Shown: positions 32,222-39,278 of the stretch, piece after piece | How positions within the stretch are numbered: the stretch's first letter is position 1 | Layout: each line of letters opens with the position of its first letter | From: Papillibacter cinnamivorans DSM 12816 | GTDB taxonomy: Bacteria; Bacillota; Clostridia; Oscillospirales; Oscillospiraceae | DNA: 64,000 nt | Assembly (NCBI RefSeq): GCF_900176335.1 | Contig: NZ_FWXW01000002.1 | Location: forward strand, 359,395 to 423,394 | Direction of reading: 5' to 3' | Translations under genes and position numbers: made by a program | The notes under the pieces: model-generated | Database searches by the model: none | Told to the model about the DNA's origin: nothing | The model's input: only the letters and a program-made list of their open reading frames with translations

Positions 32222-32454
32222 AGCGGATCCCTCCCTCTGTACCTTATGAGGACATCCGATTTGTTATTCCTTTCAAATGAAATCGGGATTCCACGCAAAT
32301 CGGGATGTTTGTCGCGAAAAAGCGCCGCCGTCCTCCCAAAAGGGAATCGTACAGCCTCTGCACCGGTTTTTCAGGCGGTTTCCATTGTCCTTGCCTCATC
32401 ATAAAATAGATGGAAGACAGATGTCTTTCAAATAAAGCAGAAGGAGGAACAGAT

Positions 32455-32913
32455 TTGAATTCTGAAAACGGCACGGGCAGCGCCTGCGGGTATCGGAGCG
32501 GTATCCTTCCCGAATGCGCGCCCCTCGCCTTCCCGTATATCCCGTTTCAGCAGAGCAACACGCGGATGTACGGTCAGGGAGAAGGCCTCAGTAAAGGCAC
32601 CCTTTTTCCGGGCCTGAATCTTCCGTATCAGGAGAAAACGGAGCCCCACGGCGAACTGGCAAACAACGCCCTCACCGAGCTCATGGCCCTTGGTTTTGCG
32701 ATCGTAGATTTGGGCCTGTATCTGGACACTCATCGGGAGGACACGGAAGCACTTGAGCTTTACACCTATTACGTGAAGCTCTATCAGGAATCCCGGGCAA
32801 GCTACGAAAAGCTCTATGGCCCCATCGTTCAGACCAATGTCACCATGAAAACCGGCTATACCTGGCTTAACGACCCCTGGCCCTGGGAGCGCACGGAAGG
32901 GGGAGCAAAATAG
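32455..32913 (+). CDS. cotJB: CotJA-CotJB fusion, spore coat proteins
   Basis: A 152-residue protein with two family regions. Residues 20-60 (CAPLAFPYIPFQQSNTRMY and GTLFPGLNLPY) match CotJA. Residues 65-150 (LMALGFAIVDLGLYLDTHRE, YEKLYGP and NDPWPWE) match CotJB. In Bacillus these are separate genes. The TTG at 32455 follows AAGGAGG by seven bases. It is followed after one base by cotJC, giving the normal cotJ order; the operon is known to be sigma-E dependent in the mother cell. Confidence 0.85.
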   Translation: MNSENGTGSACGYRSGILPECAPLAFPYIPFQQSNTRMYGQGEGLSKGTLFPGLNLPYQEKTEPHGELANNALTELMALGFAIVDLGLYLDTHREDTEALELYTYYVKLYQESRASYEKLYGPIVQTNVTMKTGYTWLNDPWPWERTEGGAK

Positions 32914-32914
32914 T

Positions 32915-33133
32915 ATGTTCGTCTACGAGAAAAAACTGCAGTATCCCATCAACATTAAAAATTCCAACCCCAGGCTGGCTTCGTACATCATCAGCCAGTA
33001 CGGCGGACCGGACGGCGAGCTGGGCGCTTCCCTCCGGTATCTGAGTCAGAGATACTCCATGCCGTACCCAGAACTGAAAGGACTTCTCACCGACATAGGT
33101 ACGGAAGAATCCGGACCGCGGGATTCTCTCTGA
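32915..33133 (+). pseudogene. cotJC: cotJC, 5' part of a gene split by a 5.77 kb element
   Basis: Encodes residues 1-65 of CotJC, a manganese-catalase-like spore coat protein, then seven foreign residues before a stop. Recognised by FVYEKKLQYPINIK, QYGGPDGELGASLRYLSQRY and GLLTDIGTEE. The break falls exactly in the metal-ligand motif E-E-x-x-H, so this piece cannot be active. It rejoins the 3' part at 38872-39278 in frame if the sequence between the two AAGAAT copies is removed. The product would then be 198 residues, close to known CotJC (about 190). Confidence 0.93.
33102..33126 (+). other. attL of the cotJC element
   Basis: Core CGGAAGAAT at 33102-33110 is shared with the right end. Directly inside it lies CCGGACCGCGGGATTC (33111-33126), the exact complement of the repeat inside the right end. 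Confidence 0.9.
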
Positions 33134-33327
33134 ACCGCCGCGAATATTTCCTGTGTCGCGTGCAAATTATGTACAGTGTATTTACTTTACATGTTGACCT
33201 TTCATCTCTCTCGCATTCTGTATGTGATGTCAATTCCTTTACATGCGGCGCGAGAGAGCTTTACACCTTCCGTTCAGCCGGCTCTCATGCTTGCGTTCCA
33301 TTGTCTTTTATCGGAAATACAGATTTC

Positions 33328-34104
33328 TTAAAGCCGGATCTCGCCTTCGAGATATAATACGGCGTTCCCCGCAATCCCGACCCGCTCCCCTCTGTTTTCA
33401 CAGAACAGAGTCCCTCCCCGCTTGGACAGCTGCTTGGCCGTCATCTGATTTTTGCCGAGTCTTGCGCTCCAGAACGGGATCAGGGTGCTGTGGGAAGAAC
33501 CCGTCACGGGATCCTCCGGGATTCCGGCTCCCGGAGTGAAAAAACGGGAGACAAAATCGGCGCTTTCTCCTTTTGCGGTCACCACTGCCGCATGTCCCAG
33601 CTGCAGGCGCTCCAGGGCTTCCATATCCGGCCGCAGGTTCCGGACGGTTTCCTCGTTTTCCAAAAGCGCCACAAGATCACGGGACCGGTGGGTTTCCAGC
33701 ACTTTTGCTCCCAAAGCATTTTCCAGTCCCTCCGGAATGGGAACCGCTTCCGGAGGTCTCGCAGGAAAGTCCATTTCCAGCCGCTCTCCCCTTCTCTCCA
33801 CCGTCAGCTCCCCGCTCATGGTCCGAAACCGGATCGTTTTCGCCTCCGGTTTTACAAAGCGGAACAGTACGAACGCGCTTGCAAGAGTGCCGTGTCCGCA
33901 CAGGTCGATTTCCGTTTCCGGTGTGAACCATTTAAGTTCGTAATATCCCCCGGCCGGCTTCAGAAACGCGGTCTCCGGCAGGTTGTTTTCCGCCGCGATA
34001 GACTGTAGCCTGTCCCTCTCCGGCCACTCCTCCAACAGGCACACTCCCGCCGGATTTCCATGGAACGGTTCCTGGGTAAAGGCGTCTACAATGTAATACT
34101 TCAT
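33328..34104 (-). CDS. PhzF-family isomerase/epimerase-like protein
   Basis: A 258-residue protein with the diaminopimelate-epimerase-like double fold of the PhzF family. Blocks: YYIVDAFTQEPFHGNPAGVC at the start, ETAFLKP with the family Glu near residue 46, DLCGHGTLASAFVLF near 68 and GIPEDPVTGSSHSTL near 200. Start ATG at 34104 sits behind GAGAGGA; the longer frame lacks a site. Substrate unknown. It is the first cargo gene of the cotJC element and reads against the host gene. Confidence 0.88.
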   Translation of the reverse strand: MKYYIVDAFTQEPFHGNPAGVCLLEEWPERDRLQSIAAENNLPETAFLKPAGGYYELKWFTPETEIDLCGHGTLASAFVLFRFVKPEAKTIRFRTMSGELTVERRGERLEMDFPARPPEAVPIPEGLENALGAKVLETHRSRDLVALLENEETVRNLRPDMEALERLQLGHAAVVTAKGESADFVSRFFTPGAGIPEDPVTGSSHSTLIPFWSARLGKNQMTAKQLSKRGGTLFCENRGERVGIAGNAVLYLEGEIRL

Positions 34105-34417
34105 GTCGTCCTCTCCTTTGACAGGCTGTCGGGTCAAAAAACAGCCGTTTTCCAGCATGCTGCCCATCTGATATGATAAAATTCCGCCTGATACGGCTTA
34201 TTTTTACTTCATTTTAACGTTCATAATCCTTCTTTGGACGGGAAAACTACATTTGATTCATGAAAATGAATCACCGCCGCCGCTTCGCGGCGCCGGAAAT
34301 CACAGCATCCCATTGGGTTGGAAACAGGAGGACACAGGCAAACCGCCTTTCGGCGATATGCCGGAAACGGAGATTCTTTCTGAAAACGCAGCGGATACGG
34401 ATAAAGGAGGAAGCGAT

Positions 34418-34585
34418 ATGCATAAAAGCATTATGTCGGAAAATCTGAAAACGGAGATCGCAAAACGGATGGGCGTTTACGACACGGTAAGCACCAGAGG
34501 CTGGGGCGAGGTATCGTCCCGGGATTGCGGAAAGATGGTTCGCACGGCCATTGAGATCGCCGAGCAGAGCGCCGGCAGCCGCTAG
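34418..34585 (+). CDS. small acid-soluble spore protein, alpha/beta type (short)
   Basis: A 55-residue protein. MSENLKTEIAKRMGVYDTVS and WGEVSSRDCGKMVRTAIEIA fit the alpha/beta SASP pattern, which coats forespore DNA and protects it from damage. The ATG at 34418 follows AAAGGAGG. It is shorter than Bacillus SASPs (60-70) and diverged at the usual GPR protease site. It sits inside the cotJC element, 36 bases before a second SASP. Confidence 0.8.
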   Translation: MHKSIMSENLKTEIAKRMGVYDTVSTRGWGEVSSRDCGKMVRTAIEIAEQSAGSR

Positions 34586-34621
34586 TGTCTCTTCCCGCGT
34601 TCCCCCGGAAAGGAGCGGCAA

Positions 34622-34828
34622 ATGGCTGACCGCGCAACAAAGGAAGCCCTCAATAAACTGAAAATGGAGGCCGCCCGGGAAATCGGAAGGCTCCAGTACG
34701 TGAAGGAAAACAACGACCATTACAAGGGCGACCTGCCTTCCCGCGTAAACGGCGAGCAGGGCGGCCCCATCGGAGGGCAGATGGTCAAGAAAATGATTTC
34801 GGCATATGAAAGCCAGGATCTGACGTAA
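34622..34828 (+). CDS. small acid-soluble spore protein, alpha/beta type
   Basis: A 68-residue protein with the C-terminal SASP block GGPIGGQMVKKMISAYE and an N-terminal LNKLKMEAAREIG helix. AAAGGAGC precedes the ATG. Alpha/beta SASPs are made in the forespore under sigma G. That is the compartment in which a mother-cell element stays integrated. Confidence 0.85.
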   Translation: MADRATKEALNKLKMEAAREIGRLQYVKENNDHYKGDLPSRVNGEQGGPIGGQMVKKMISAYESQDLT

Positions 34829-35118
34829 GAGGCCTTTTTCGCCGGAATACAGCAGTCCGCCGTCCGGGTTCCGGGCGGCGGATTGTATTGCAGCCTGTCC
34901 GTATCCTGAAAATAGTATACTACATAAATACGTTTCAGCGGAAGAGACTTCCGGTTCGAATTTCAGTCAAAGGCGGCGGGGACTTAATCATGGAGCGCAA
35001 TCCATCTGCCTTGCGGATGCTTTCGCTCCGCCGTGTTGCCTTCGTCTGCATCCGGAGTTCTTGTGAAACGCGGTTCGGGCCTCTTCCCTGCTGACGGCTG
35101 GAAAGCGGCCCGAACGGT
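34829..35118. other. spacer with a stem-loop after the SASP pair
   Basis: A stem around 34858-34882 (TCCGCCG, TCCGGG and complements) probably ends the SASP transcript. An open frame at 34888-35094 has no ribosome binding site or known features and is not called. Confidence 0.5.
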
Positions 35119-35769
35119 TCAGTCCCCGAAGCTGTCGTGATAGCGCTTGAGGATTACGGCGAATTGTTCCCTGGTCAAAGACTCCTGCCAGCGGAGGTTC
35201 CCGTTCTCATCTCCCAGGATGAGCTTTTCCTCTGTTGCCCACTCGGCTCCCTCCTCCGCCCAGCTGCTGGGCCGGCCGCCCTCCGGTTCCGTATCCGCGG
35301 CGCCGTCCGGCTGCCCGGATTCTGCCTCCTCGGCCTTCCCGAAGGTGGCAATCGTCTCTGCGCTTCCGTTTTTGCTCTTTTGGATCCAGCGGACCTTTCC
35401 GCTGCGCACATCCACATGGGTGAAACCGCCCTCGTATTCGTACAGACCGATTCCGCCCGCCTCCAGTATCTCGGCGTACCGGGCCACCTCGCGGCTGGTA
35501 GCACCGTTCACCCGGATGTCCGCGGCTTTCCCCAGAACATGCTGGGATTTAGAAGCGCCGCCGATTTTTGCGTTGTATTCCGGCGTCCGGTATGCACTGG
35601 TGATGGAAACGGCCGCCTCAAAGTGCTCCCGGATCTTTTCCAGTAGCGCGTTTAGTTCTTCCGAAATCAGGATTTTATCCGTTCCGTCGTGACAGGCAAA
35701 TTCCCGGACCCGGAAATGTTCCGACAGCTTCCGGTCCCCGTCGGTCCGGAGGCTGTAAGGGATCACCAT
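35119..35769 (-). CDS. peptidase M15-family protein, endolysin-like
   Basis: A 216-residue protein. The first 120 residues match the M15A zinc carboxypeptidase fold of phage endolysins: HFRVREFACHDG, SAYRTPEYNAKIGGASKSQH with ligand His, GKAADIRV with ligand Asp, and GFTHVDVR with ligand His. A linker follows, then an SLH-like stretch (WAEEGAEWATEEKLILGDEN and LTREQFAVILKRY). ATG at 35769 is preferred over the GTG at 35778, since GGAGGG lies right before it. It overlaps the upstream Gly-Pro-rich gene by seven bases. Confidence 0.85.
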   Translation of the reverse strand: MVIPYSLRTDGDRKLSEHFRVREFACHDGTDKILISEELNALLEKIREHFEAAVSITSAYRTPEYNAKIGGASKSQHVLGKAADIRVNGATSREVARYAEILEAGGIGLYEYEGGFTHVDVRSGKVRWIQKSKNGSAETIATFGKAEEAESGQPDGAADTEPEGGRPSSWAEEGAEWATEEKLILGDENGNLRWQESLTREQFAVILKRYHDSFGD

Positions 35770-35960
35770 CTGGGGCACCCTCCGGGCCTGTTACAGCCCC
35801 AGGGGCCGCCGACCCACCACCAGAACGGCGGCGGACAGGGGCGTCCCGGGCCGCAGCCCCCGCCCCACCAGGGTCCGGGTCCCGGTCCCGGTCCTGGGCC
35901 TGGACCCGGGCCCGGGCCTGGACCCGGCCTTCCCGGACCTCTGAACATTGGATTTCTCAT
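35763..35960 (-). CDS. glycine-proline-rich small protein
   Basis: A 65-residue protein. After MRNPMFRGPGRPG it contains an uninterrupted run of about nine Gly-Pro pairs, then a part rich in Trp, Gly, Pro and Cys (WWGGGCGPGRPCPPPFWWW). A perfect AAGGAGGT site precedes the ATG, so translation is very likely. It is placed between the holin-like gene and the endolysin-like gene and overlaps the latter as ATGGTGA. No family recognised; a coat or wall surface component is possible. Confidence 0.7.
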   Translation of the reverse strand: MRNPMFRGPGRPGPGPGPGPGPGPGPGPGPWWGGGCGPGRPCPPPFWWWVGGPWGCNRPGGCPRW

Positions 35961-36050
35961 GCTTTTTACCTCCTTATGGGATTGGATACGATTGTGTCCC
36001 GCCTGCCCGCCGGTTTTATCGGCAGACAGGCGGGTCCATATGGCATAGGA

Positions 36051-36353
36051 TCAGCTGATGTCGATCTCGTCGTTTTTTACTTTCTTCTGCTTATCCGGCC
36101 AAAGGTTGTTTTTACTGAGGTTTTCCAGCAGGGCCTTGCAGGCGTAGACGGCGAAAACCCCCAGGATTTCCGTGACCACGGCCTTGGACAGGGATTCTGC
36201 GATTTCCTCCTTGCCCAGGTAAGCCAAATAATAGCTCAGGTAGGTCCAGATCGTGCCGTTGAGCAGCAGCCAGCCGACGATGATTTTTGTATACTCCGTT
36301 TTTTTGCGGTTTTTCAACCAGTCGGTCATTTTAGTAATCAGTCTCTTTAACAC
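36051..36353 (-). CDS. holin-like membrane protein
   Basis: A 100-residue protein with two hydrophobic helices (about residues 24-46 and 58-78) and a charged C-terminus. The block EIAESLSKAVVTEILGVFAV occurs in small proteins of clostridial phages. It lies upstream of an endolysin-like gene on the same strand, which is the usual order of phage lysis genes. Holin function is inferred from context. Confidence 0.6.
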   Translation of the reverse strand: MLKRLITKMTDWLKNRKKTEYTKIIVGWLLLNGTIWTYLSYYLAYLGKEEIAESLSKAVVTEILGVFAVYACKALLENLSKNNLWPDKQKKVKNDEIDIS

Positions 36354-36589
36354 AGGTACCCTTCTTCCGCTGCGGAAGTTGCCTGCACTCCATTGTATTC
36401 AGCGCCGTGCTCTCTCGCTCCGCCGTCCGAAAGGCACTGAAAACCTGCCGGATGCGAAAAACCCTCTTTCCCCTCGCAAAACGGTCCTCTTCCCGCCTCT
36501 TAAGCCCGATCCGCGGCTTGTTTTCCCTTGCTCCCTGTGCTACTATTTTTTTATACTTCCAGGCCCCCGCGCCGGAAAGGACATGTGAT

Positions 36590-37087
36590 ATGATCGGACG
36601 AATCGGCCCCCTCGTGGGGGAAATGATCGGTTTCTTCGGAAGCGATACGAGGCGGATAGGCCATTTTCTGAAGGTTTGGGGATTTGCCGCTGCCATCGGG
36701 AAGCTGGAGGGCCTGGATCCGGAAACCCAGGAGATCCTGGAAGCCGCCGCCGTGGTACACGATATCGGCATCCGGCCCAGCGAGGAGAAGTACGGCTCCT
36801 CCGCGGGGCACTATCAGGAGCTGGAGGGTCCCCCGCTGGCAAAGGAAATGCTCCGGCGCCTGGGATATCCCGAAGGGCTTACGGCCCGGGTTTCCTTTCT
36901 CGTGGGGCATCACCACACTTATGGGAGCATAGACGGAATCGATTATCAGATCCTGGTGGAAGCGGATTTTCTGGTCAACATCTCCGAGGATCGGATGGAC
37001 GCGGATGCGGTGTCCCGGATTCGCGGCAAAATCTTCCGGACCAAAACCGGTCTTGATTTCCTGGACGCCCAGTATCCCCCGGCATAA
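36590..37087 (+). CDS. HD-domain protein
   Basis: A 165-residue HD-superfamily hydrolase. Likely metal residues: HFLKV near 25, AAVVHDIGIRPSE near 55, GHHHTYGS near 105. ATG at 36590 follows GGAAAGGA. A larger frame upstream to 36407 has no coding character. Substrate unknown. It is the gene before the recombinase, with a terminator between them. Confidence 0.8.
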   Translation: MIGRIGPLVGEMIGFFGSDTRRIGHFLKVWGFAAAIGKLEGLDPETQEILEAAAVVHDIGIRPSEEKYGSSAGHYQELEGPPLAKEMLRRLGYPEGLTARVSFLVGHHHTYGSIDGIDYQILVEADFLVNISEDRMDADAVSRIRGKIFRTKTGLDFLDAQYPPA

Positions 37088-37160
37088 GTCTGGAAGCGTC
37101 GGACCCTGTCCGCCCTGCTTTGAATCTCCCCGCTCTGAGTCTTTCTTCAGCTGAAATGTC

Positions 37161-37215
37161 AGGACCCTCCGCGGCCTAAACCGGAATGTTTTCCCGTCCG
37201 GCCGCGGAGGGTCCT
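37161..37215 (+). terminator. terminator before the cotJC-element recombinase gene
   Basis: Perfect 16-bp arms (AGGACCCTCCGCGGCC and complement) with a 23-base loop, followed by TTCTGTTTTCTTCTG. Confidence 0.75.
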
Positions 37216-37314
37216 TTCTGTTTTCTTCTGCTTTCGCTTTCACGGCATACCCCGGAGCCCGCCTCCATACAATTTTCTTGCGAAGGATTTTCAAATTCCG
37301 AAAGGAGGCAAAAG

Positions 37315-38895
37315 ATGCCCTACTGCATGTATCTCAGAAAATCCAGGGCCGACGCGGAGGCCGAGGCTCGGTGCCCCGGAGACACCCTGCTGCGTCATGA
37401 GCAGGCGCTTACCGAACTGGCCGCCCGCCTGACCCTCCCTATAGAAGCCGTTTACCGGGAGCTGGTCTCCGGAGAATCCATCGATGCCCGGCCCGTGATG
37501 CGCCGCCTGCTCTCCGAGGTGGAGCGGGGGTGCTGGGAGGGGGTCCTCGTGATGGAAGTGGAGCGCCTCGCCCGGGGCGACACCGTGGATCAGGGTGTGG
37601 TGGCAAGAGCCTTCAAATACGCCGGAGCTAAAATCGTCACTCCCCTGAAAACATTTGATCCCTCCGACGAGTTTGACGAGGAGTATTTTGAGTTCGGCCT
37701 TTTCATGAGCCGCCGGGAGTACAAAGTGATCAACCGGCGTCTTCAGCGGGGCCGCCTGGCCTCGGTTCGGGAGGGAAAATTTGTGGGCAGCCGGGCTCCC
37801 TTCGGCTACCGCAGGATTCGCCGGGAGGGAAAAAACGGCTTTATTCTGGAACCAGATCCCCAGGAGGCCGACGCGGTGCGCCTCGTCTTCGGCTGGTTTG
37901 CCGGGGAAATATCAGACGGCGGCGGCGTCCGGCCCGGCCTTCGGGAAATCGCCCGCCGCCTGGACGCGCTGGGGATTTCTTCTCCCGGCGGCTGCGTCTG
38001 GAGCCCCGCCGCCATAGGATGCATGCTCCGCAATCCCGTATACGCCGGATGGATCCGGTGGAATTTCCGAAAAACCGTAAAGTCGCCCGCGGACGGAAGC
38101 ATAAAAGCCTCCCGTCCCCGCTCCCGTCCGGAGAATTGGATTCTGGTCCGCGGCCTGCACAATCCCCTTATAAGCCCCGGGCTTTTTGAAAAAACCCGTC
38201 TCCTGCTGCAAAGCCGTCCCATAAAACCCGGCCCTGTTTCCCGCTCCAAAAAAAATCCCCTCTCCGGCCTTCTTTACTGCGCCCTGTGCGGCCGCGCTAT
38301 GATCCGCCGGCCCGGAAAAAGCGGCTCTCCCGATTCTCTTTTCTGTCCCTCCCCGGGCTGCCCCACGGTGGGCGGTTACCTGTCCGCCGCGGAGGATTGT
38401 CTCCTCGCCGCCCTTGAATACTGGTACATCCTGCCTCATCCTCTGTCTCCGGCGCGCGCCGGCTCAGTCCCGGATTCTTCCCGCCTGATCCGAAGGCGGC
38501 TGGACACTGTGGTCCGGCAGAAAGATTCCCTCTGCGGTCTTCTGGAGCGGGGCGTATACGACGAGGAGACCTTTCTCCGGCGCAGAGAAACCCTGGAAAC
38601 GAAGGAAACGGAGCTTCTCGTCCTGCTCCGGGACACTCTCCGGGTACCCGACGCTCCGCTTCCTGACCTCTCCTCTCCGGTTTCTATGGCCGCGCTGTAC
38701 CGCGCCGCACCGTCGCCGGAGGAAAAAAACCGTCTTCTCCGAAGCCTCCTGGAAAAGGCGGAATACCGCAAGGAAGGACGCCTGCGGTTTAACGGCGGGC
38801 GGGAAACCCTGGTCCTCCCCCTCTATCCCCGCCTGCCCCCCGCCATGCTCAGCGCGAATCCCGCGGTCCGGAAGAATTGGGACACCTGGAGATGA
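37315..38895 (+). CDS. large serine recombinase of the cotJC element
   Basis: A 526-residue recombinase. The catalytic domain starts at the N-terminus with YLRKSRADAEAEARC; the nucleophile is S10. It ends near residue 150, followed by the recombinase domain (SRAPFGYRRI near 160), a zinc ribbon (YCALCGRAM and LFCPSPGCPTVGG near 320-350) and a coiled-coil region. The short N-terminus and YLRKSRAD motif are those of recombinases of clostridial sigK skin elements. ATG at 37315 follows AAAGGAGG. The last six codons (NWDTWR) lie across the att core and in cotJC sequence, so the protein end changes when the circle forms. Confidence 0.94.
   Translation: MPYCMYLRKSRADAEAEARCPGDTLLRHEQALTELAARLTLPIEAVYRELVSGESIDARPVMRRLLSEVERGCWEGVLVMEVERLARGDTVDQGVVARAFKYAGAKIVTPLKTFDPSDEFDEEYFEFGLFMSRREYKVINRRLQRGRLASVREGKFVGSRAPFGYRRIRREGKNGFILEPDPQEADAVRLVFGWFAGEISDGGGVRPGLREIARRLDALGISSPGGCVWSPAAIGCMLRNPVYAGWIRWNFRKTVKSPADGSIKASRPRSRPENWILVRGLHNPLISPGLFEKTRLLLQSRPIKPGPVSRSKKNPLSGLLYCALCGRAMIRRPGKSGSPDSLFCPSPGCPTVGGYLSAAEDCLLAALEYWYILPHPLSPARAGSVPDSSRLIRRRLDTVVRQKDSLCGLLERGVYDEETFLRRRETLETKETELLVLLRDTLRVPDAPLPDLSSPVSMAALYRAAPSPEEKNRLLRSLLEKAEYRKEGRLRFNGGRETLVLPLYPRLPPAMLSANPAVRKNWDTWR
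38856..38877 (+). other. attR of the cotJC element
   Basis: GAATCCCGCGGTCCGG (38856-38871) is followed by AAGAAT (38872-38877) and then the cotJC frame LGHLEM. The core CGGAAGAAT is at 38869-38877. Confidence 0.9.
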
Positions 38896-39278
38896 TAGGC
38901 GCCATTGTCTATCAGCTCACCCGGAATTTAAGCGAGGAAGAAATCAAGCAAAGCGGCTTTGGCCCCTATTTCATCGATCATACCACGGGGGTCTACCCCA
39001 CCGCGGCCTCCGGCTTCCCCTGGAGCGCGGCGGGCATGGCCGTTAAGGGCGACGTCATCGCCGATCTCACCGAGGACCTGGCCGCCGAACAGAAGGCCCG
39101 GGTCACCTACGACAACATCCTGCGCATGAGCGACGACCCGGACGTCAGCAATGTCATCCGCTTCCTCCGGGCCCGTGAAATCGTCCACTTCCAGCGCTTC
39201 GGCGAAGGCCTGCGCCTTGCAAAGGAGCGCCTGGACCAGAAGAATTTATATTATGTAAACCCCTCTCTCGATGCGTAA
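38872..39278 (+). pseudogene. cotJC: cotJC, 3' part of the split gene
   Basis: Encodes residues 66-198 of CotJC in the rejoined gene. Recognised by GHLEMIGAIVYQLTRN, the MAVKGDVIADLTEDLAAEQK block with AAEQKAR, MSDDPDVSNVIRFL, and REIVHFQRF with the second E-x-x-H metal motif. The frame can be read backward through GPEE in the element, which mirrors GTEE in the 5' part. No ribosome binding site lies before it, so it is silent until rejoined. Confidence 0.93.

Follow-up and report, generated by a model that had tools for sequence, protein, structure and literature searches.

This analysis concerns a 64-kb stretch of the Papillibacter cinnamivorans DSM 12816 genome (contig NZ_FWXW01000002.1, positions 359,395 to 423,394; 64,000 nucleotides, hereafter the window), in which the coat protein gene cotJC lies in two parts on either side of an element that encodes a serine recombinase. 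The gene parts, the element ends with their predicted attachment (att) sites, and the recombinase with its putative promoter are arranged as follows.

32915..33109, plus strand: cotJC 5' part, codons 1-65 (reading frames, Pfam)
33102..33110, plus strand: 9-bp core CGGAAGAAT, attL copy
33102..38868, no strand: intervening element, 5,767 bp (junction analysis)
33110..33126, plus strand: left-end arm of the predicted attP dyad, 17 bp, an inverted copy of 38856-38872 without mismatch
37245..37273, plus strand: sigmaE-like promoter GCATACC-14-CATACAAT, ending 41 bp before the recombinase ATG (promoter scan)
37315..38895, plus strand: large serine recombinase, 526 amino acids, adjoining attR (PF00239, PF07508, PF13408; phrog_95 integrase)
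38856..38872, plus strand: right-end arm of the predicted attP dyad, 17 bp
38869..38877, plus strand: 9-bp core CGGAAGAAT, attR copy
38877..39278, plus strand: cotJC 3' part, codons 66-198 and stop, starting LGHLEMIG (reading frames, Pfam)

The initial annotation of this DNA proposed that cotJC is split in frame by an element of about 5.77 kb with a common sequence at both boundaries. This description stands: the shared sequence is the 9-bp repeat CGGAAGAAT, and the spacing of its copies, 33102 against 38869, gives an element length of 5,767 bp. The first 65 codons had been placed at 32915-33110; the start is correct, and the end is 33109, with 33110 being the last base of the repeat. The remaining 133 codons lie where they had been put. 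In the integrated state the 5' frame continues past codon 65 to a stop that ends at 33133, and the two parts joined at CGGAAGAAT give 198 open codons with zero stops. Both parts match the Pfam family Mn_catalase (PF05067), at profile positions 1-67 and 67-198, respectively. Intact CotJC proteins, which the annotation had suggested looking for in close relatives, were found, with 83-87% identity to the rejoined protein over 99-100% of its length among the 120 best listed. The interruption falls exactly in frame between Glu65 and His68, inside the E-x-x-H motif, in agreement with the proposed cut within a metal motif. A second intact cotJC, named in the annotation as a possible refutation of its proposal, is no obstacle, because the genome (2.89 Mb in 20 contigs, 99.1% complete) contains no further PF05067 match at E ≤ 0.001.

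Both halves look to be under purifying selection, and neither resembles a pseudogene. Comparison with the ten nearest intact genes yields ratios of nonsynonymous to synonymous differences (pN/pS) of 0.07-0.18 in the 5' half and 0.18-0.38 in the 3' half, against 0.17-0.31 between intact genes (four pairs); these values are rough because synonymous sites are near saturation (pS 0.44-1.02).

Excision at the repeat would bring the two element ends together in a predicted attP of the form GAATCCCGCGGTCCGGA-AGAA-TCCGGACCGCGGGATTC, whose 17-bp arms have zero mismatches. The dyad scores 18 of 22 pairs, a value reached by 0 of 200 shuffles. The recombinase, correctly located by the annotation at the 3' boundary, is an intact open reading frame (ORF). 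Its Resolvase and Recombinase domains are accompanied by a zinc ribbon that scores just under the threshold (25.1 bits, cut-off 25.3), and its sequence YLRKS provides Ser10, corresponding to the serine near residue 10 of large serine recombinases; the three domains and this serine assign it to that class. XisF-type recombinases, known from the fdxN element, carry out developmental excision. XisF is also the best NCBIfam match of the recombinase, but the score of 62.7 bits is far below the cut-off of 375 and indicates kinship rather than membership.

The recombinase frame crosses attR and overlaps the cotJC 3' part at 38877-38895, with its C-terminal residues written in cotJC DNA; excision would therefore alter these residues in the circle. 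The same overlap bears on the idea that CotJC is produced as two separate chains that function without being joined. Usable frames do exist in both halves, with TTG 38877 as a possible start codon of the 3' part. Yet the start of this part lies within the recombinase gene, the break leaves Glu65 and His68 of a single ligand motif on different pieces, and the pieces found in relatives can be as short as ~27-46 codons, so that a functional split protein is highly improbable.

The sigmaE-like promoter in front of the recombinase is the only site on both strands of the 64 kb that combines a perfect -10 with at least 5/7 at -35, judged by what we take to be the sigmaE consensus. Directly upstream of cotJC are two further features of the cotJ operon.

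32380..32407, plus strand: sigmaE-like promoter TTCCATT-13-CATAAAAT before the cotJ operon, with a weak -35 (4/7) (promoter scan)
32410..32913, plus strand: CotJA-CotJB fusion ORF, directly 5' of cotJC (Pfam CotJB and CotJA)

In B. subtilis, heat-induced expression of cotJA is reported to need sigF and sigE, not sigK (PMC2648990). The recombinase promoter and the sigmaE control of B. subtilis cotJ both suggest that excision would be timed to the mother cell. Another scenario is phase variation, with the element leaving and re-inserting at all stages and cotJC restored in some cells regardless of sporulation. A parallel is the yin element of yabG, described as excised at all culture time points (PMC10747680), and no directionality factor was found in the cotJC element. 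We nevertheless regard phase variation as unlikely, since the only sigmaE-like promoter of such quality in the window precedes the recombinase, and since a lineage whose growing cells lost the element irreversibly would no longer carry it.

A split cotJC is widespread among relatives. In a sample of 395 genomes of the same order, each at least 90% complete, a PF05067 match is present in 344 and absent from 51. No full-length CotJC copy (best E > 1e-45, a threshold set by us) was seen in 136 of the 344 matched genomes, including that of P. cinnamivorans, and 112 of these 136 have at least two partial PF05067 matches. The other 24 have a single partial match, which in some cases may be a ferritin-like paralogue; conversely, a paralogue may mask a split cotJC, as in G381 and G058. 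In the family of P. cinnamivorans, 26 of 60 genomes have no full-length match, and in 25 of these 26 the gene is in two or more pieces. As a control, the SpoIVA ATPase domain, of similar length, is matched in 372 of the 395 genomes, and its best match is weak in three only (G232, G111, and G171). Single-contig genomes with a split cotJC include G174, G220, and G422, with the halves nearby, and G127, with the halves far apart. Many of the relatives are draft genomes, which could suggest an assembly or binning artefact. The probability of an artefact is nevertheless negligible, given that the P. cinnamivorans halves and element lie on one long contig, that the four single-contig genomes are also split, and that just 3 of the 372 genomes matched by the control spore gene have a short copy of it.

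Break sites were mapped in 55 genomes without a full-length copy, which we chose from the own family and from genomes with few contigs; the counts omit six weak matches of the ferritin-like paralogue (profile ~12-83, long frame; G003, G048, G069, G094, G101, and G177). In 51 of the 55 genomes the piece boundaries fall at one, or more than one, of three sites, near codon 33 (n = 20), codon 65 (n = 25), and codon 136 (n = 14), with eight of the 51 broken at two of these sites; G003, G051, G057, and G101 fit none of them. A fourth site lies near codon 100 (L029, L030, L031, and L034), and a fifth follows HFQRFGE near codon 176 (seven loci). The tail beyond codon 176, sought in four genomes, was found in G416 and G069 and was absent from the fetched flanks of G292 and G024. 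In an alignment to solved Mn catalases, Glu35, Glu65/His68, Glu136, and His169 coincide with conserved residues that we take to be the manganese ligands of the Lactobacillus enzyme, and four of the five break sites are on, or within ~6 codons of, these presumed ligand motifs. The best 9-nt window at each break site ranks in the 85th-99th percentile of nucleotide conservation among 38 intact genes. The simplest interpretation is that the least variable parts of the coding sequence serve the recombinases as attB.

Several relatives carry more than one interruption. In G069, four collinear cotJC pieces on one contig, with cores GGTACCGAAG, CGCAGCAGA, and CGCTTTGGCGA, rejoin to 210 open codons. 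In Clostridium methylpentosum DSM 5476, three pieces, the first of them on another contig, rejoin to 209 open codons. In Anaeromassilibacillus sp. An172, a single contig holds four pieces in order, at 86.6-134.5 kb, where the script resolved one of three junctions. The rejoining script misjoined G416, G381, and G220 and left G058 incomplete. Since relatives have cotJC in two, three, or four pieces, elements of this kind probably insert into it by preference. Over the relatives and P. cinnamivorans together, the junction script joined 28 of 36 neighbouring piece pairs open at the break; in the others it found no core (L031 and L138), misjoined the pieces (L035 second pair, L054, L142, L146, and L154), or met pieces out of order (L155). 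A predicted attP dyad at p ≤ 0.05 accompanies 22 of the 28 open-joined pairs, compared with none of the five misjoined pairs.

The recombinases at the breaks belong to several lineages. Of the 31 genomes whose split regions were fetched, 26 have a serine recombinase within 1.3 kb of a break, the exceptions being G005, G060, G292, G354, and G396. Recombinases at the codon ~33 and ~136 breaks, and some at codon 65, score 67-144 bits against the profile of the P. cinnamivorans type, members of which exceed 500 bits. There are 81 ORFs of this own type (78 different), and 31 of the 81 adjoin cotJC codon 65, 24 in the direction of the gene and 7 against it. At L053 and L054, closely similar recombinases stand in opposite orientations in cotJC. 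In the recombinase tree, target labels (cotJC codon 65 and GH18) are clustered, with 29 changes where shuffling gives a mean of 42; these counts are slightly off, as L041, L048, L052, and L060 were labelled "other" and later found beside a GH18 part. The P. cinnamivorans recombinase is on a long branch, and its placement is not settled by the tree. Among 22 related loci from IMG/VR, the recombinase is beside a cotJC 3' part in four, and therefore sequences classed as viral also use this site.

Own-type recombinases are also associated with other genes. Part of a GH18/LysM gene, which we take to be of the YaaH/SleL type, is found no more than 0.5 kb from the recombinase at 22 of the 81 loci (L019, L020, L021, L024, L025, L026, L033, L037, L038, L041, L042, L044, L046, L047, L048, L052, L059, L060, L063, L219, L221, and L223), with Pfam matches for three. 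Both halves of the gene flank the recombinase in five of the 22 (L052, L059, L060, L063, and L221), and the break reads ...EWGYTY|GPPMAV... in most. Flavonifractor plautii (L020) and Lacrimispora amygdalina (L021) are among the hosts. At two loci (L011 and L213), an own-type recombinase adjoins a broken asparagine synthase gene; in B. subtilis, asnO is described as a mother-cell gene (PMC517825). A separate observation is that sigK of P. cinnamivorans itself appears split (C11:174892-175230, L132, and C9:564598-564951, L133): the 5' half ends ...AARCIENA near a contig end, and the 3' half, on the other contig, starts ...IANEILMYF. A resolvase/recombinase protein is encoded ~19 kb from the 3' half, on its element side, and no large serine recombinase was found beside the sigK halves in the first flanks.

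The sequence itself shows that cotJC is split, that a repeat flanks the element, that joining restores the frame, that the ends form an attP dyad, that the recombinase is intact, and that there is no other cotJC. Very probably the recombinase would excise the element precisely at the repeat and rejoin cotJC, as predicted chiefly in sporulating mother cells under sigmaE control. The sequence supports a self-excising element of the skin type. In the proposed course of events, sigmaE would turn on the recombinase in the mother cell during sporulation, and recombination of attL with attR would yield attB in cotJC and a circle with attP. The forespore would retain the element, to be inherited by the progeny, and the split would be tolerated because cotJC is needed only in the dying cell and because coding DNA of the highest conservation would serve most reliably as attB.

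Several observations, in addition to the near-saturated synonymous sites, weigh against this proposal. The window contains 34 inverted 16-mer pairs, a few of them with kilobases between the arms, and because long inverted pairs occur elsewhere in it, the attP dyad carries weight mainly through its exact place. Six of the 28 open-joined pairs have a predicted attP without a significant dyad (L035, L135, L141, L145 second pair, L162 first pair, and L164). The predicted attP junction has no exact match in viral_contigs. No excised allele, that is, an intact CotJC of at least 88% identity, is among the 120 listed of 7,999 candidates scored. A separate same-genus search covered the P. cinnamivorans genome alone. 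None of the element's small ORFs could be named as a candidate directionality factor, nor was a conserved one found. A sigmaE-like promoter of at least 12/15 precedes 5 of 23 cotJC-linked own-type recombinases, with a shuffled mean of 1.6 and maximum of 5. Finally, the single contig of G127 has the halves in the wrong order with 675 kb between them, one piece is on the opposite strand in G187 and in G413, and the pieces of G354 are out of order; in these four genomes, as now arranged, one simple excision could not rejoin cotJC.

Intact copies in G381 and G058 were considered as excised alleles and rejected, since they are a different Mn-catalase paralogue. A sigmaE-like promoter as a general rule for cotJC-linked recombinases is weak, the observed count being equal to the shuffled maximum.

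Scattered or inverted pieces in some relatives would fit a recent or dead insertion that inactivated cotJC, with the element staying and the gene heading for loss. Excision was not observed, and the 51 genomes of the order without a PF05067 match indicate that cotJC can be lost. Such decay is nevertheless quite unlikely in P. cinnamivorans, where both halves are open, conserved, and apparently under purifying selection, the recombinase is intact, and the att sites fit; moreover, the multiply split genes of G069 and C. methylpentosum are open in every piece.

Besides the recombinase, the element has the following genes.

33328..34167, minus strand: PhzF-family isomerase, cargo (PF02567, TIGR00654)
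34418..34585, plus strand: divergent alpha/beta-type small acid-soluble spore protein (SASP), cargo (PF00269, 24.7 bits, cut-off 22)
34622..34828, plus strand: alpha/beta-type SASP, cargo (PF00269, 68.4 bits)
35119..35778, minus strand: M15 peptidase with SLH repeat, endolysin-like, possibly a phage lysis remnant (PF08291, phrog_894)
35763..35960, minus strand: small Gly/Pro-rich ORF (ORF list; no PHROGs match)
36051..36353, minus strand: 100-amino-acid protein of a phage-associated family of unknown function (phrog_27228, E 3.3e-7)
36590..37087, plus strand: HD-domain protein, cargo (PF01966)

The PHROGs matches of the eight element proteins are limited to an integrase, an endolysin/peptidase, and families of unknown function; head, tail, terminase, and replication genes are absent among them, and the element does not qualify as a prophage. 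Three alpha/beta-type SASP genes were found in the genome, two of them inside the element (34418-34828), and thus after excision the forespore alone would keep these two copies. The only cargo common to this element and the loci compared is a SASP match in L003. Elements in the cotJC of other genomes carry FeoB with an iron-dependent repressor (G381), a GH25 lysozyme with a cupin (G194), pyrimidine-nucleoside phosphorylase (G220, a 3.1-kb element), an amidase (G358, a 2.3-kb element), or a polysaccharide deacetylase (G323). Very small elements (L153, 2.3 kb; L172, 2.4 kb; and L141, 3.1 kb) hold little beyond the recombinase; since no directionality factor is apparent in these three, the helper may be encoded by the host.

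Comparison of genomes gives five conserved break spots with several recombinase lineages at them, and one gene may hold up to three elements. Probably, the cotJC of gut-type spore-forming Clostridia is a gene in pieces and a serial landing pad, where unrelated serine recombinases use five motif attBs and insert up to three independent elements, all to be removed in the dying mother cell before the protein is made. The elements would act as safe harbours for passengers kept by the forespore (iron transport, nucleoside salvage, cell-wall hydrolases, and spore DNA-binding proteins), and the recombinase family would have spread to other mother-cell genes, such as those of the YaaH/SleL type and asparagine synthase. 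As far as the sources cited below describe it, developmentally removed bacterial DNA is known from a handful of genes, most of them in model species and each with a single element. By contrast, a full-length copy of this coat gene is missing from about two fifths of the matched genomes (136/344), with several recombinase lineages, fixed hot spots, and up to three elements in one gene. If excision is confirmed, cotJC would become a system for measuring what programmed DNA loss costs, in what order it proceeds, and how it is controlled. The breaks are also a source of many natural recombinase/att pairs, and they call for caution, as spore genes may be mistaken for pseudogenes.

Published targets of such elements, in the reports cited here, are sigK, spsM, spoVFB, spoVR, gerE, and yabG. 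The skin elements split sigK in B. subtilis and C. difficile, and their excision rejoins the gene (PMC4191935, PMC5025042). The cotJC element resembles them in the in-frame split of a mother-cell spore gene, in the repeat that would restore it, and in the serine recombinase encoded within the element; it differs in the gene affected, in its size of 5.8 kb, and in having almost no phage genes and no directionality factor found, and cotJC of relatives has several sites per target gene. Another parallel is gin in gerE of B. cereus ATCC10987, described as a non-prophage element of 28.6 kb with a 9-bp repeat and three serine recombinases (PMC5595907). Like gin, the cotJC element is not a prophage, has a 9-bp repeat, and encodes serine recombination machinery, but it is 5,767 bp long and has one recombinase and different cargo. 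SPbeta in spsM, vfbin in spoVFB, vrin in spoVR, and yin in yabG are likewise elements in sporulation genes, but, as described, they are prophages or prophage-like, with one element per gene. A split cotJC was not found in the literature searched, which was covered by title and start of abstract and leaves subscription journals mostly outside. Compared with the known systems, this is the same kind of machine, with a new target and a multi-site, multi-element organisation.

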